From Tubulanus polymorphus (Eukaryota > Nemertea > Palaeonemertea > Tubulaniformes > Tubulanidae), in assembly GCF_964204645.1 (NCBI RefSeq), contig NC_134026.1, positions 5,890,001 through 5,954,000 of the forward strand: a stretch of 64,000 nucleotides of DNA, given 5' to 3'. How positions within the stretch are numbered: the stretch's first letter is position 1; every line of letters begins with the position of its first letter. Positions 22,601 through 30,200 of this stretch are shown here, piece after piece. The notes beneath the pieces were generated by a model. It ran no database searches. It saw only the letters and a list, made by a program, of their open reading frames with translations, and was not told where the DNA came from. Both the position numbers and the translations under genes were made by a program.

Positions 22601-24612
22601 GTTATTATTCAAGAATTTGACTTGCATATTATCTTGGTTGTTAGCAATTTTCAAGGCATTTCAAACATGTCTGGCCACACAATTTAAACATATGTGTTTT
22701 TCACATCAAGGTCCTATCAATGGCTTGCGGTTGTACTTTGTTAACGGTCCCCAAGCACGTTATTATTGTTTTACACTTATTATGATTTTGTATATGAAGT
22801 AGAATGATGAAGTAATAAACATATGTAAAGTACACTAGAAATTGTGTTTTTATGGGTAAAAAAGCTGGATCAAGTAGTAGTCTCACTACTAGTCACCAGA
22901 CTGCGATCTTGGTGCTGTTTCCGCGGGGACAATTCATAATTAATAATGTGATTGATTCTGGTTCTCGGGGAGCTTGGCCGGGCTGTGTTAGTAACCTAAT
23001 GGTTATACTGACTCGGCCTGGCTGGGGTTGGTTATTGTTGGTCATCAACTGTGCCAAGTCCCTTTGGCTTTTTCTGAAACAATGGCTTGACTACTGGCCA
23101 TGGGGTTGAACTATGGACTCATAAACAGGATATTGATGAGCTAATTATTTATTCAGGGCGGGATACATCCGAAACACCTTAGGAACCACCCGTGTTTGGT
23201 GCCGTCGATAGTGAAACCACCACAGGAAAGCGAGGTAAAACGCATGTAATACATGTCGATCACATGACTGCTTTGGTACGTATGACATGTGCGTACATGT
23301 TAATAATTGCCTGAACTATTAATGCTTTGTTTTGAGCCCTCCAATAATTGTGTCACCCACTTTTGAAAAGAGCAGCACATTTAGTTCGTAGTTCTGCGAT
23401 CAAAGGCACCCGATCACAGATAAAAGGCCATTCATTGATGTGTAGAATATGAGGAATAGACCCGGTATCTACTTGGCAGTAATACTAAATACCGACCAAA
23501 GCCGTCCAATAATACTGTCAAAGACCGTCTAAATACCGACTATAATTTATATACTCCGTGATGTGTTTAATTTACCTCGATTATTACGTTCATTCTTTAT
23601 ACACTGATTAGCTGATAGGCCTAATTTCGTGCAATTTGATTTGATAATTGTATAGAAAGATTTATGAATCGATTGATGTGTATTGTTGCCACTAACTTGA
23701 AATTAGATTAGTACTAAGTGGATATTTTGGCGACTCAGCATTATTTTAGTAAAAATTATTATGCCATCCCCTATATATAATAGAATGTGTACTAATAAAG
23801 ATTTTGATATGGTATAGGGTCCACAGGGTTAGGATTAGAGGTAAGGTTAGGGGACCAAACCGAAGGTTTGGAGACCCCACTAGTGCACGGCAACGGGTTC
23901 TCCCTGTAAAGAAAGTATGAAAATGCTGTGCTAGTAAGATGGCCTGATTCAAATCCTGAATTTTCTATTCTAATTTACTGAATAGACTGGTACGACCTAA
24001 GGCCTATAGTCTTCTTGTCATTTGGAACCGGGCTACAATGAATGATTTAGGAGTTGTAGTAACTAGAATTAAGGAAATAGGGTAGGGCCTATCGTTGAAC
24101 TTAATGAACTTTGTCAGCTAAGAGTTAATATATCACTATTCCCCTTGTATTCATTGAAGTATAATTCATATATGGAACTCGAAAATGTCCAGGCTTTGTT
24201 TGGCCCATACTGAAGTTTCTTTTCTTTCATTTGTGCTCATTATGAAATTTTGAAAATTTCATTGGTTCATTTCAAATCTCTTCGTACCGGTATAAAGTTT
24301 TTTCTTTCCTTGAAATAAACTTGAACTGTTTACTTTGAAACAAAAGTAGGTAACCATAGGTAGACTTAGTGAGATTTTGGTGCAAGAGATTCTTTACACC
24401 TTAATTGCACAGTTTGATTTATAACGTTGTTTGATTTTCACTCAGGACTCATTCGTGATATTCTTGGTGTGAGCGGGTAATTAGTGATTCAAAAGGATTG
24501 GCGATAAACTAGGTGGCTTGCTGTATGTATCCTAGGCAACCGTAGGCCTATAACAGATACTTGAGTTTTATACTCTAAAGGCCTAAATGCCAAAATCACC
24601 AAAATAAGCAAT
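19649..24612. other. Gene-free spacer with repeat fragments
   Basis: No gene was recognised on either strand. Contents seen: a SINE-like fragment at about 20425-20475 (CCCCTGGCTGGATTCAGACC, TGATGGCATCA, reverse) and another at about 20755-20800 (GATGCCATCAGGTTCG, forward). A decayed inverted repeat spans 21799-21931, with GTGTAGGTCGACTGCAACC at the left and GGCAGTCGCAAGGCCGACCT at the right. A small ORF at 20956-21195 has no splice context or known similarity. Confidence 0.45.
21799..21931. repeat. Inverted repeat built of GTCGCAAC/GTTGCGAC words
   Basis: TGTGTAGGTCGACTGCAACC at the left is the imperfect reverse complement of CAGTCGCAAGGCCGACCTAC at the right. The interior repeats GTTGCAAGAGCAG, GGTTGCGACTGCG and TCGCTGCATTGGCAG. 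It looks like the core of a small non-autonomous DNA element. Confidence 0.5.
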
Positions 24613-24666
24613 GGGGCTCGCCGTCGCTATGGACACCAGGTGGCGTGTGTGCGTTAGTAGCCATCG
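24613..24666 (+). repeat. Left terminal inverted repeat of the transposon
   Basis: Begins GGGGCTCGCCG and ends near GCGTTAGTAGCC. It matches the inverse of 30105-30158 at both the outer 11 bases (exact) and the inner GTTAGT.GCC block. The middle is diverged. It probably also serves as promoter for the nuclease gene starting at 24721. Confidence 0.8.
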
Positions 24667-24720
24667 CGTATCGACTTCCGCTCACTTCCGCGCTCGATTT
24701 CCTACTTTTAAATTGTAATA

Positions 24721-27518
24721 ATGTCAGAGAATTACGGGTCATGGACTGTACCGAAGCTGAAACAAGAGTTAAGCCGACGAGGTGCGGTAACCTATGGGAG
24801 GAAAATCAACCTAATTGAAAGGTAATTTAAATGTCGATCATATTTCCATGCGGTTGATGGTGTTCAGTCGTTTAGTCTGCGCAAAAATGTTGCAATGATC
24901 ATGGAATCAACAGTGATTTTTTGCCAAAATCATCGATGATTCTAGACCTATGCTCAAGTGAAATGAACGTGTTTTAATAGATCCAGAGATGAAAGCTAAA
25001 CCTCAGTGGGTTGTGGGTCAGGGTATAGTACAAGTTTACCGTCACCAGCCCGGGCTGCGAGGATGGCTATGGCCGGTCCCACGCGTCCCGTCCCGCGATA
25101 TCTTTCATTATTTTTCGGTTTTCATGTCCGGAAAATAAACATAATGCACATAAAAGTCATCGATAAAACGTTTTTTAAATCACTATTTGATATTATGATT
25201 GCCTTGAGAAGTTTAGATGGCAATGTTTATATCTTGAAATGTAGGGATTATTATCGGGATGTAGGACGCCTTGTCAGCTAACCATCGCAACAGCTGAGTT
25301 ACCACTGGCGCCATCTATCGAACATGAATTGAAGCTGATGCCAAATTTTACTGCCAATGTATCCATAAATCATTGGACATGTCTGCTGCTGTGTCTAGTC
25401 TCTATTGAATTTTTATATGTTATTGGAATTATAGTCAGAACCCTGATCAACTTGAGGTGACGGTAAACTGAATACCTTACTTATATACCTTCTTACCACA
25501 ACACAGTTGAGTTAAATACAAATCTGTATGACCATGGACGTATAGACGTCCATGCTTGGAGTAATCATTTCGATGTAACATTTCAACTCTGGGTCAACTT
25601 TCTGTTAGTTGATTGAATGATTTTTGACATTAGATGTTTATATTTCATGATTATTTCGTGTTCATTGCAGATTAGAAGCATACGGCCGTAACAACGATTT
25701 TAGGGGACCGGCCATAACATTACCACAAGAAACAGTTCCGGAATGGCCCACATGCGGTTTCAAACAGCTTACAAATGATCATAAGATTGTATTGCCAAAA
25801 TTCAATATTGACACAGTAACTGCATATTTCACGTATAGAATGGCAATGGACAACCACTGTACCAAAGACATTAAAGCTATTGAGAAGGGTCAGCAGCTCA
25901 TAGAATCGCAACGTGTTCAAGCCTGCAGTATTCTCATCAAAAGCGGAATTGTTTATCTGACTGGATTAGTTGGTGCTGCTATGAAAAAAAAGGTAGGCCA
26001 GTTTTATATTTCATCAAAATAACACAATATTCCCTCCTTTAAATCCACATAAATCTGCAATACAACTGTATTCTTAAAAGGTTGTAATGTAGCAAACATT
26101 GTTGATTAGTTTATTTTTATATTTCATTGCAGATCTCATACTCGTACCAGATATCATTGTCTCAAACAACTGGTGAATTCAGAAACAGCCATTGTGAGTG
26201 CCCTGCCGGTAAGGGTCCTAATGGGACCTGTAAGCATGTCGCGGCTGTACTTTTGATGTTTGCTAATTTTGTGTCATCAGATGGGCCTAACGCTCCCGAA
26301 ATACTTAAATCGTGTACGGAAAATCTACAAACATTCCATAAGCCCAAGTCTGTTTATACTGGTAAGTTGTTTGGTTACATCGCCACCATTCAGCAAATTC
26401 GTACCCTATATATCTTATTTTTTATAAATTCTGATGTAATGGCAATGTTTTACATAATGTACTTGGTTTTCAATTTTTAGCTCGGCTGTGACCTTGTTTA
26501 AATTTACCCGTCACTTCTTAACAGGTTCCCCTGTCAAGGCTGGTGACTTACCTCTATCAAAATCAAAGAAACGCGAGGTATCAATGGAGGATCCAAGGCC
26601 TGTGAAATACCGGAAATCAGCTGGATACGAGGATTATGTCCGGGGAATTGTCCTTAATTACTGCTCTGTATCGTCTTTAGACCTACCCATCAAGTATAAG
26701 TACAAGAAAGCCGATATCAAAACAGCAGCAATTGACCATGATTATCTGAAAAAAACTTTGCTTGAATATTGGGTGGAAAACTCTATTAAGGTAAGTTTTT
26801 AATCAACGTGTCTGAGAGTGACCTATGTTATCCTTCCCTCTGTGCTTATAATTAATATTCCATTTTGCCTTTTCAGTTAAATGAAACACAGGCAATATTA
26901 CTAGAAAGGAGTACTAGGAAGCAGGCAGAATCTAGTCAATGGTTTCAGGAAAGGCAGCTACGATTAACTGCATCTCGTTTCGGTGAAATTGTTTCGCTCA
27001 CGAAAAGGCGCAATATCGACAAATTGTGTAAATCTCTTCACGATAATATTCCGTTGAGAAATGCTGCTGTTTGCCATGGAAAGACATTCGAAAGTAAGGC
27101 GATAGCGGCTTTTGAAGGTAAATTCTCCGTTAAAGTACAGCCTTGCGGACTTCATGTGAGGCCAGATATAGATTATCTAGGCGCGAGCCCAGATGGCCTT
27201 GTGTCTGAGGATGCCATTGTTGAAGTGAAATGTCCGTATCGCGGTAGAAATGAACTTATTGCTCCGGGGCCATACTTCAAGTTTCTTAGTGCAAAAGATA
27301 AGAAGCTGAAACGTTCGCATAATTACTATGATCAGATTCAAGGACAGTTGCATATTTGCAAACGGAAAATGTGCTATTTCGTTGTTTATACTCATAAGGA
27401 CCTTTATGTAGAGAGGGTTTATCATGATCAAAAACACTGTGAACTATCTCTGCTTCCAAAATTAGAAATCTTTTATAGGAAGTACTATTCAAAGTATTTA
27501 ACAATGCATGCGTTCTAA
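24721..27518 (+). CDS. SAP-SWIM-YqaJ-type nuclease encoded by the transposon
   Basis: Five exons with matching phases: 24721-24821, 25671-25992, 26133-26361, 26525-26790, 26877-27518; 519 residues. Residues 1-40 form a SAP-like DNA-binding helix pair (SWTVPKLKQELSRRGAVTYG). A SWIM zinc finger has C162-x-C164 and C174-x-H176 (CECPAGKGPNGTCKHVAA). From about residue 325 there is a YqaJ/lambda-exonuclease fold: TASRFGEIV, HGKTFE (E378), GASPDG (D412), E422-x-K424 (EVKCP) and a QIQGQL helix near 459-463. These are the expected metal-binding and catalytic positions of the PD-(D/E)XK superfamily. AATAAA at 28015-28020 could end the transcript. Its role in transposition is inferred: end processing or repair of excision or insertion intermediates. 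Similar host-annotated proteins in invertebrate genomes are probably transposon-derived. Confidence 0.88.
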
Positions 27519-28014
27519 AACATCTAGATTATTCCTGGAGATATAGATCGGATATTTTCCGAAGATTCCATAGTTTTTGGCATTAATATCTTCATACAAC
27601 TAAATTTGTAAATACATGTACATCCCAATTGTATGATATAGATTTCATGTCAATATCGGCTTACTATTTGTTGATACTTTTAAGTTTTAATATTTTTTAT
27701 CATCTATTATCAATATTTTTTATCATATATAGTTATTTCAAACAGATATACTTGTCAGGTTGTGTAGTTATATGCATAATTACTGACGATGGTGGGTCAA
27801 AAGTTTGAAAATTAATGATTTACTCCTTTTCTGACCATATTTCATTACCATGATTATTTATTATTTCATTATGTGCTGCGCCTGACTATGGCATGAATGC
27901 TTTAGTCCCAAAACTCAAACTCTTCCATTTTACATAAAATATCTGTGTTATCATGCATTTTAAAAAGATTTTATGTAGCGTTGTTGTATTTTTGGTTTTT
28001 ACCAGTTTTAAATC

Positions 28015-28020
28015 AATAAA
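28015..28020 (+). terminator. AATAAA polyadenylation signal of the nuclease gene
   Basis: AATAAA about 500 bp after the nuclease stop codon and about 300 bp before the opposing transposase stop codon. It is the only perfect plus-strand AATAAA I found between the convergent genes. Confidence 0.5.
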
Positions 28021-28311
28021 AGGGTTTGTTACTGGAATGAAAATTAGTTTGTCCTTTGAATTGAAAACACTGCAAAAGAGTGGATTAAGTCAAAGTGAAA
28101 TAGGTTATATTGCGCACAGATTTTGAATATCAACGACAGACAATTAATTACAGTCCAGGCCCATAATTGATATCTAAGAATTTGGGATTTACCTAAATAA
28201 TCTATTAAGAGAAACAATGATGTTTCTTTAAAGCAGGGGTTTCGATGAATCTCAAAACAAAACTCAAAAATATATACTTTAGATATCAATTAACAGACAT
28301 TAACAATAAGG

Positions 28312-30014
28312 TTAAGCAAATTCGTTCACAATAGCTGGTCTGAAATTGCTTATACTGAAACAAACATAAACTATCCTAGAACCCATATTGACTTTACTAA
28401 GCGGCAGGTCTTTTTTCAAAATAAGAAAAGTTTTTGACAATCCGATTACTCTTTCTACTTGGATGCGTTTACTGGCTACTCTACGATCATGAACTACTTG
28501 TTCAGGTTCAAGTTGACTCTTGCCCTTCAATAAAGTTGGGGTGTTCACCTTAATGTTCTTGGTAGCAAAAAGATCTTGTACCATTATACCTCTATCGGCC
28601 ATGATGCTGTCATTCGAGCTGAAGTATTTTGAGGTGTTTGAACACAGCTGGGATCGTTCAATGATTTGTCGGTCACTTGTTGAACCCGCATAACTTTCAC
28701 TTACATAACTAACGACCCCTCTCGGTGATATTCCAACCATAGTTTTAAGCGTGTTCTTATGTTTGTATGTGCTGAAAGTTGCAGTTTGAGATTTTACATT
28801 CGACGGCTTTTCAATTGGAATCTCTGTAGCATCTAAAATAACTCTGGTTGACGGAAAATGATGCTTAAAGCCACTGGGCATGAAACAGTCTATCTCTTCT
28901 CTCTCTGGCCATGTATTGATTTCACTTAATTGGAAATACATGAAGTTTACCCAGGTTAACACAATCCTAGAAACTACACTCTCTGATATGCCGAACAGAA
29001 TACTCAGTTCTATATCTTCCTTGGCACGCCTTAATTTGATTAATGTCAAGAAAAATTGATTGACCGGTGTTAGTTTCTGACATTTGTAATTCAAATCGTA
29101 CGCAGCAGGTCCTAGTACACTGAAAAACATCATCAAATGTTCATAGTCTTTAAAACTGGTGTAATATTTGATCGACCTAGGATCCACCATAAATCTCTCG
29201 ATACAGAAAAATTGATCTGAAAGGAGGGAACACTGAATATTCTTATCCAAGTTAGTGTTTTTATTGGTTGGTTCCTCTATTATGTCCATTCTGTAATTGC
29301 TGGTATGTTGTAGGCCTATTTCAACTTCAGTGGCTATGTCATGGTGTACAGGTTCTTCCTCCAGTTTTAATCTTCGCCGACTGGCTCTACTTTCTCTCTC
29401 TGAATCTGAGGAAACTGGTGGTGTGAAGGCAAATATACGCGGAATGGCATTCTCTTTTAATTTTCTTCTAGAACCTGAAACACATAAAGAAAAAAACATA
29501 TTTCTACTCAAAGATCAACAGCTGCCAGTCAAGTCAACAACCTTTAAATTAAAAAGATAAATCTACCACATAAATTATTAGGCCTATTGTTGTTATTATC
29601 ATAATTGAGTTATATCATTATCCTGTTATCAACAAACTACTATGATGATATGAAAATAAGCGCCTGGCTTTTTAAAAAAAGTTCAAAACATCGACATTGC
29701 ATAATATCGATAGGCCCAAGCTGAGGCCTAAACGAATCAGCCTGCCTTGGATCTTGACCGCTTATTTCACCTTAGTTGGAAAACTCAATAGGAAAGCCAT
29801 ATTTACCGGTAAGTGTCTGTTTATAGTCCGTTGGTAAAAAATGTCGATGGCATACGATAGCTGTATCCGATGGCTGCCATAATTTTGCAGATTTCTCGCT
29901 ACTCTGTAGTCGTTTTATCGCAACAAGCCATTTCATTTTCAAATCTGTGTTCGTAGGGAACTTAAATCCGCCTACTCTTGACTTACAAAGGGGTACACAA
30001 CAATAGCGAGGCAT
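28312..30014 (-). CDS. THAP domain DDE transposase (ISL2EU/Harbinger-like)
   Basis: Two exons: 29807-30014 and 28312-29474, spliced G|GT to 456 residues. Exon 1 read alone hits a stop at 29772, so the splice is needed; it restores the THAP C-terminal AVPTIF-like motif (AIPRIF) directly after the junction. THAP zinc finger: C5, C10, C55, H58, with W29 and FKFP/CHRHF blocks, expected to bind the transposon ends. A helix-turn-helix region follows (LTPVNQFFLTLIKLRRAKED, LFGISESVVSRIV). The DDE_Tnp_4-type catalytic domain shows D284 (VILDATE), D363 (IMADRG) and E410 (RIQVERVIG). All three acidic residues are present, so it is predicted competent. The start at 30014 is the first Met before the zinc-finger Cys, about 90 bp inside the right inverted repeat. 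Confidence 0.9.
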
Positions 30015-30104
30015 TATAATAGATTCAAGCGCTTTTCAAATCGTCAATTCGCTCGAACGCGGAGATGAATAAAATGTTGTTTACAATTCAAATTCAAATC
30101 ACTA

Positions 30105-30158
30105 GGGCCACTAACACGCGCGCGCCATCTCGCGGCAGCGCTCAGCGCGGCGAGCCCC
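30105..30158 (-). repeat. Right terminal inverted repeat of the transposon
   Basis: Ends CGGCGAGCCCC at 30158 followed by AT. Very CG-rich (CACGCGCGCGCCATCTCGCG) compared with the flanks. It faces the left repeat at 24613 and probably contains the transposase promoter. Confidence 0.8.
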
Positions 30159-30200
30159 ATTGAATTATTATATTTTGATTATTTTAGATAATATTACAAC

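Follow-up and report, generated by a model that had tools for sequence, protein, structure and literature searches.

In the genome of the nemertean Tubulanus polymorphus we analysed a stretch of 64,000 nucleotides (RefSeq assembly GCF_964204645.1, contig NC_134026.1, positions 5,890,001 to 5,954,000 of the forward strand), hereafter the window, in which positions 24613-30158 hold an element of 5,546 bp with two convergent genes, one for a predicted 456-residue transposase in two exons on the minus strand and the other for a predicted 519-residue protein with a YqaJ nuclease domain in five exons on the plus strand (Table 1). The ends, GGGGCTCGCCG...CGGCGAGCCCC, could be placed exactly at 24613 and 30158; the terminal inverted repeats (TIRs) are perfect over 11 bp, form a 15-nt perfect inverted repeat once the flanking CAAT and ATTG are counted, and are followed by an imperfect likeness of both ends that reaches about 50 bp inward. 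AT lies on either side of this copy (AAT/ATT, the slash standing for the element). We assigned the class by target, TIR and gene content, the transposase being compared with relatives of the same genome: the family shows the 2-bp AT duplication in an A/AT/T target that is typical of ISL2EU, its TIR falls within the range known for this group (6-259 bp, usually starting GG), and its two open reading frames (ORFs) encode a transposase with THAP, helix-turn-helix (HTH) and DDE parts and a YqaJ-domain protein. PIF/Harbinger proper, with a Myb/SANT partner and a TWA 3-bp duplication, was considered and rejected, the partner here being a YqaJ protein and the duplication AT in 10 of 13 copies. Thus, an earlier note on this DNA, which had claimed a complete two-gene transposon with matched TIRs and AT on both sides and had named ISL2EU as its type, was right in both respects, and the element is confirmed on sequence grounds as a complete DNA transposon, most likely an autonomous one of the cut-and-paste kind.

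Table 1. Features of the element and its borders in the window (CDS, coding sequence).
Feature	Position	Strand	Basis or remark
AT target-site duplication, left copy	24611..24612	.	A/AT/T target
Left TIR, GGGGCTCGCCG	24613..24623	+	perfect 11 bp
Nuclease exon 1, start ATG, most of SAP	24721..24821	+	CDS prediction, Pfam
Nuclease exon 2, SAP end and middle region	25671..25992	+	CDS prediction, Pfam
Nuclease exon 3, SWIM zinc finger CxC..CxH	26133..26361	+	Pfam match under cut-off; column conservation
Nuclease exon 4, linker	26525..26790	+	CDS prediction
Nuclease exon 5, YqaJ / lambda-exonuclease-type catalytic domain (E378, D412, E422, K424), stop	26877..27518	+	Pfam, phmmer, PHROG
595-bp stretch missing from copies L004, L005 and L007	26994..27588	+	copy alignment; contains nuclease catalytic residues
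Transposase exon 2, HTH_Tnp_4 and DDE_Tnp_4 catalytic domain (D284, D363, E410)	28312..29474	-	Pfam
Transposase exon 1, most of THAP zinc finger	29807..30014	-	Pfam
Right TIR	30148..30158	-	inverted-repeat match to left end
AT target-site duplication, right copy	30159..30160	.	flank sequence

Neither gene has a frame break, and all five predicted introns have GT-AG borders, the splice structure of both genes being a prediction from sequence. In Pfam searches the transposase matched THAP (E-value 4.3e-13), HTH_Tnp_4 (2e-12) and DDE_Tnp_4 (2.4e-39), and the nuclease matched YqaJ (6.9e-13) and SAP (2.1e-6), both over the cut-off, and weakly SWIM (0.0039; 17.1 bits vs a cut-off of 19.6). The intact genes described in the earlier note and the catalytic residues that it had named (D284/D363/E410 in the transposase; E378, D412, E422 and K424 in the nuclease) were therefore recovered as placed, and of the domains that it had listed for a check by hidden Markov models YqaJ, SAP, THAP and DDE_Tnp_4 were found over the cut-off and SWIM below it. 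The catalytic motif of lambda-exonuclease / YqaJ nucleases consists of Glu, Asp, Glu-x-Lys and Gln, all of which are conserved in the present protein. Enzymes of this group are typically toroidal trimers that degrade double-stranded DNA processively in the 5'-3' direction. Its homology to solved exonucleases was detected directly by phmmer (3syy, 1.2e-9; lambda exonuclease 1avq, 2.9e-4), and its PHROG matches were annotated as 'exonuclease' (1.9e-17) and 'RecE-like recombination exonuclease' (9e-15).

Screening of the 267.8-Mb genome for the element end sequence yielded 32 occurrences (16 forward, 16 reverse), compared with 10 (7 and 3) for a control with the reversed pattern. Of the 32, 26 pair up as the two ends of 13 copies, the window copy included; the other six were rejected as chance matches, their 1.5-kb stretches giving no blastn match to the element. 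We aligned the 12 other copies (L001-L012) with 300-bp flanks to the window copy. Eight of them (L001, L003, L006 and L008 to L012) show no difference from it along all 5,546 bp, which makes nine identical copies; L002 differs by one substitution and one 3-bp deletion, through which its transposase has Y306C and lacks R35, and L004, L005 and L007 have zero substitutions and each the same 595-bp deletion. A search with the DNA of the whole element agrees with this count, nine of its rows being full-length with 10,002 bits, next to L002 with 9,982. Of the ten paired copies of full length, three are on C1, one each on C2, C3 and C7, and two each on C8 and C9. Beyond the known copies the search listed no other complete one, but diverged relatives and a dispersed repeat of intron 1, and as it covered the best 40 of 77 candidates, the copy number it provides is a lower bound. 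In total, one substitution was found across 64,764 compared bases (8 x 5,546 + 5,543 + 3 x 4,951), which sets the upper 95% bound of divergence at about 8.6e-5 per site; if substitutions accumulate at 1e-9 to 1e-8 per year, a rate assumed as an order of magnitude, the spread would roughly be younger than about 80,000 to 8,000 years. No 25-mer is common to any two of the 13 pairs of flanks, hence the copies represent 13 separate insertions. An assembly artefact or a segmental duplication might be suspected, zero differences in 8 of 12 other copies being unusual, but it is hardly credible given the differing flanks, the ending of every copy exactly at the TIR, the empty sites known for four copies, and the variant copies L002, L004, L005 and L007, which have been kept, so that the copies are not all homogenised. 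Judged by its copies, the family is one that has moved repeatedly and very recently.

Among the 13 target junctions ten read AAT/ATT, one reads AAC/ACT, and two are not a perfect 2-bp repeat. The latter, ATT/ATT in L002 and AAT/AAT in L008, can be read as 3-bp duplications, seen here in elements nearly without mutations and in a family with otherwise 2-bp duplications; since L008 carries no mutation and L002 two changes only, integration probably produces junctions of more than one length. For four copies we could identify empty sites whose junction is intact; these read AATT in the case of L005, L009 and L011 and AACT in that of L012. The two flanks of L005, when joined, have 100% matches spanning the junction at two other genomic places, where the empty sites read CATAATTGG (filled site CATAAT-element-ATTGG), the paralogous empty sites of L011 are 98-99% identical, and L009 lies within a tandem repeat with intact AATT in the neighbouring units, two to the left and four to the right within 300 bp. 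The paralogous site of L012 has an overall identity of 91%; its small gaps lie about 10-20 bp off, the surroundings of the junction are identical (TCTAACTGAAGG), and the duplication is AC. This copy is inserted inside a repeat with a tRNA-like stretch and many near-identical copies, probably a short interspersed nuclear element. The joined-flank search over the copies, the one search that took in the window copy, L001, L003, L004, L006, L007 and L010, covered the best 40 of 4,986 candidates, filled by the repeats of L005 and L011, and no empty site of L002 or L008 was found among the best 40 of 1,306 candidates. The copies with the same ends and duplications and the empty sites for which the earlier note had asked are thus both at hand, the former at 13 unrelated sites in total.

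To the nuclease gene the genome offers a wider comparison. We found 64 YqaJ matches, ten in copies of the family (the nine identical ones and L002) and 54 elsewhere, the three deleted copies yielding none. At least 27 of the 54 outside matches have a DDE_Tnp_4 match no more than 5 kb away (23 convergent, 2 on the same strand, 2 divergent), a lower bound because the DDE_Tnp_4 matches listed are the best 150 of 371 candidates; uniform scatter would bring about 0.6% of matches into such proximity, a chance figure which clustering of transposons could raise. In 19 of the 23 convergent pairs and the transposase fragment L020, a sample anchored on the window copy as query and including this copy and some decayed ones, the catalytic columns of the nuclease are kept at E378 (16/17), D412 (18/19), E422 (18/19), K424 (19/19) and Q459 (17/19), with a mean identity of the YqaJ domain to the window copy of about 43% among aligned relatives. 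The C/C/C/H columns of the SWIM finger are kept in 13/14, 14/14, 13/14 and 13/13, and those of the transposase at D284, D363 and E410 in 16/18, 21/21 and 21/21. Furthermore, nuclease and transposase distances are correlated over 19 loci, without L020 and the near-duplicate L022 (r 0.72; 0 of 9,999 permutations), equally so without the window copy and L019 (r 0.72; 0 of 9,999), and within subgroups of 6 loci (0.88; 112 of 9,999) and 13 loci (0.78; 0 of 9,999). Because the loci were picked for convergence and the alignments lean on the window copy, the correlated divergence speaks for co-inheritance and not for contact. Against L019, its closest relative, the nuclease gave dS 0.35, dN 0.04 and dN/dS 0.116 (synonymous and nonsynonymous divergence and their ratio; 423 codons), with 0.099 for codons 1-218 and 0.145 for codons 303-519, values that are if anything raised, L019 being a decayed copy; purifying selection on the nuclease is thereby shown, in the comparison with this one relative. 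Taken together, convergent pairing, catalytic conservation, low dN/dS and correlated divergence make the nuclease look like a selected partner of the transposase, which lends indirect support to the claim of the earlier note that the two work together.

The 595-bp deletion of L004, L005 and L007 begins within the YqaJ domain, takes out the four catalytic residues and passes the stop codon, so that the predicted nuclease product has 349 amino acids with SAP and SWIM retained; the transposase is untouched. The breakpoints have 2 bp (TC) in common and are identical in all three copies, which is most simply explained by a single origin of the deletion, after which the deleted form moved. Since this form stands at three sites, the catalytic domain is not needed in cis, and supply in trans by intact copies and full dispensability both fit the deleted copies equally. 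The matched empty site of L005 indicates that a deleted copy inserted cleanly. Neither the three copies without the catalytic domain nor the very recent movement had been foreseen in the earlier note.

The relative L019 is decayed, with no match to nuclease exon 4 and part of the transposase missing, and its transposase is far more diverged than its nuclease, synonymous changes being saturated. Compared with the window copy, the nuclease differs at 43 of 158 four-fold sites and the transposase at 63 of 99 (Fisher p 1.4e-8); the nuclease introns are 82-90% identical where aligned (intron 2 at 90% over 128 of 140 bases, introns 3 and 4 aligned in part) and the transposase exons 72-74%. L020 comprises a transposase fragment of 92% identity, and the 6 kb covered there hold no match to the nuclease. 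Hence such elements do not always have the same history in both halves. L019 looks mosaic, recombination between related elements being the simplest reading, and alternatively it may stem from a fusion of neighbouring insertions. In addition, a second YqaJ-bearing family is represented by L021 and L022, which are 98.6% identical over 4.1 kb, have the TIR AGCRCAGCGTTAGAG and stand in AAT/ATT at both sites; the A/AT/T target is therefore common to two YqaJ-bearing families. A second young DDE family, L047 and L048, consists of two copies of about 5.5 kb that share 99.8% of their sequence and end in inverted repeats, and has equal-scoring matches at C1:28839732 and C8:11086887; having no YqaJ match nearby, it was considered as a nuclease-free ISL2EU and set aside, as by eye it looks Harbinger-like with a Myb-like ORF.

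As is understood for this family of transposases, the THAP finger and HTH would bind the element ends, and the DDE domain would cut and rejoin with a 2-bp stagger, yielding the AT duplication. The nuclease would be a 5'-3' exonuclease of the lambda-exonuclease type for double-stranded DNA, with SAP and SWIM as the parts that deliver it to DNA, and would act in trans on free DNA ends from transposition, most likely those of the broken donor site, where resection would favour homology-directed repair and a copy would be restored at the donor. We put this resection of transposition-made ends forward tentatively, as the likeliest of the roles considered, at somewhat below an even chance. It is doubtful, and to us rather unlikely, that the nuclease goes further and, by converting excision breaks into homology-directed repair, raises copy number and exchange between related elements, which would have produced L019 in the way that exonucleases of phages make phage genomes mosaic. 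What suggests resection is the homology to lambda-type exonucleases, of which SXT-Exo, assigned to the same Pfam family in the paper on it, degrades double-stranded DNA 5'-3' from ends and feeds annealing (PMC3118119), and the partner enzymes of the Kolobok lineages (PMC9587614), which together look like end-processing enzymes. Several observations weigh on the other side. None of the two gene products of the element is an annealing protein, and resection at the donor site is itself something we infer. A single-sequence AlphaFold2 model of the YqaJ exon had a mean predicted local distance difference test score of 33.7 and was unusable. Spy elements, reported to form the sister clade to ISL2EU, can transpose in cells by means of their native transposase and are described with one or two ORFs encoding a transposase (PMC11304231), and most Spy elements have a single ORF (PMC9179366), so that a partner nuclease seems to be no inherent need of this transposase type. 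Moreover, the presence of deleted copies beside intact ones would fit an unneeded nuclease equally well, and all three deleted copies have an ordinary AT duplication, the same as most others, hence the junctions show no sign of an effect of the nuclease.

A different role for the second protein would be that of a DNA-binding and nuclear-delivery partner, like the Myb-like protein of Harbinger, in which SAP and SWIM matter and the nuclease fold is secondary. PIF/Harbinger needs two element proteins, of which ORF1 reportedly binds the TIR and, in human cells, is needed to bring the transposase into the nucleus (PMC2836001), which also counts against resection; the 349-residue products of the deleted copies retain SAP and SWIM, codons 1-218 are constrained like the rest, and the SWIM columns are nearly invariant. 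Nevertheless, few positions of the protein are as well conserved as the YqaJ catalytic residues, a constraint that mere DNA binding would not need, and we consider such a role unlikely, though deserving serious attention. That the nuclease trims transposon/target junctions, such as flaps or gap ends, at excision or integration without long resection is suggested by the two junctions of 13, in L002 and L008, that depart from the perfect 2-bp duplication; however, both would be explained without any nuclease by simple 3-bp duplications, the usual length in Harbinger relatives, neither of the two copies has an empty site among the candidates searched, and the junctions of the three nuclease-deleted copies are ordinary, so that trimming appears improbable. 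Neutral cargo, or a nuclease kept for another reason such as competition with other elements and with no role in transposition, would agree with catalytic-domain-less copies at three sites and with the 27 of 54 outside YqaJ matches that have no DDE_Tnp_4 within 5 kb among the matches listed, an unpaired half which likewise speaks against resection by a transposase partner and may partly reflect the restriction of the DDE_Tnp_4 matches to the best candidates. Purifying selection, catalytic conservation and divergence correlated with the transposase speak against the cargo explanation, which we regard as quite improbable.

Within intron 1 of the nuclease gene, positions 25033-25469 form an insert-like unit of 437 bp bounded by a 14-bp perfect inverted repeat (AGTTTACCGTCACC), the inside of which matches at 75-81% at least 25 dispersed places among the best 40 of 77 candidates; five of the 25 places lie, by eye, within 5 kb of a YqaJ match. 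The unit looks like a nested miniature transposon. To the right of the element, 42 bp (30159-30200) separate its end from the ATG (30201) of an open frame, the first 66 residues of which match DAO (FAD-dependent oxidoreductase), so that it lies within the promoter or the 5' untranslated region of that gene. A viral carrier for the element was also considered and is unsupported, neither protein having a confirmed relative in viral contigs: 16 stretches fit the pattern of the YqaJ exon, of which 0 were confirmed, and none fits that of the transposase exon, in searches with a single protein as query, which find close relatives only.

The architecture and the family are already known (Han 2015, PMC4482050), and it is the natural test system that deserves attention. 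Nine identical intact copies and a natural deletion of the catalytic domain at three sites of the same genome make a direct genetic test of the nuclease possible, which bears on the question of its role that Han 2015 left open. Among the open-licence PMC papers listed in our searches there was no experiment on an ISL2EU nuclease, and in 2022 no proof of ISL2EU activity had been reported to the knowledge of the authors of PMC9179366; in mutation-accumulation lines of Daphnia magna one gain and one loss were annotated as PIF-ISL2EU (PMC8594854, 2021). In 2010 no PIF/Harbinger elements other than Ping and Pong were said to be naturally active (PMC2836001); beside these two, and beside Spy (PMC11304231), the present element could add a naturally active two-protein ISL2EU.

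Compared with the ISL2EU elements of Han 2015, reported there only from animals, the present one has the same A/AT/T target, a TIR starting GG, a THAP/HTH/DDE transposase and a protein with a YqaJ exonuclease domain, whereas it is longer (5,546 bp vs a reported average of about 4,840); against the part of that description available, the SAP and SWIM parts of the nuclease, the one AACT target and the two possible 3-bp duplications are features of the present element and its family. With PIF/Harbinger (Ping/Pong; PMC2836001) it has in common a related DDE transposase and a second protein, which in Harbinger is required, but the latter is Myb/SANT-like in Harbinger and the duplication there is 3 bp (PMC4482050, PMC12730594). 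KolobokE, KolobokD and KolobokH are likewise DDE transposons with a lambda-exonuclease-like, DnaQ or RecQ enzyme, although of another transposase superfamily and with the enzyme of KolobokE and KolobokH downstream of the transposase domain (PMC9587614). Finally, with SXT-Exo (PMC3118119) and lambda exonuclease the nuclease shares the YqaJ catalytic domain (PF09588), 1avq and 3syy being direct sequence matches, while SXT-Exo works with an annealing protein, which the element does not encode, and the nuclease of the element adds SAP and SWIM.

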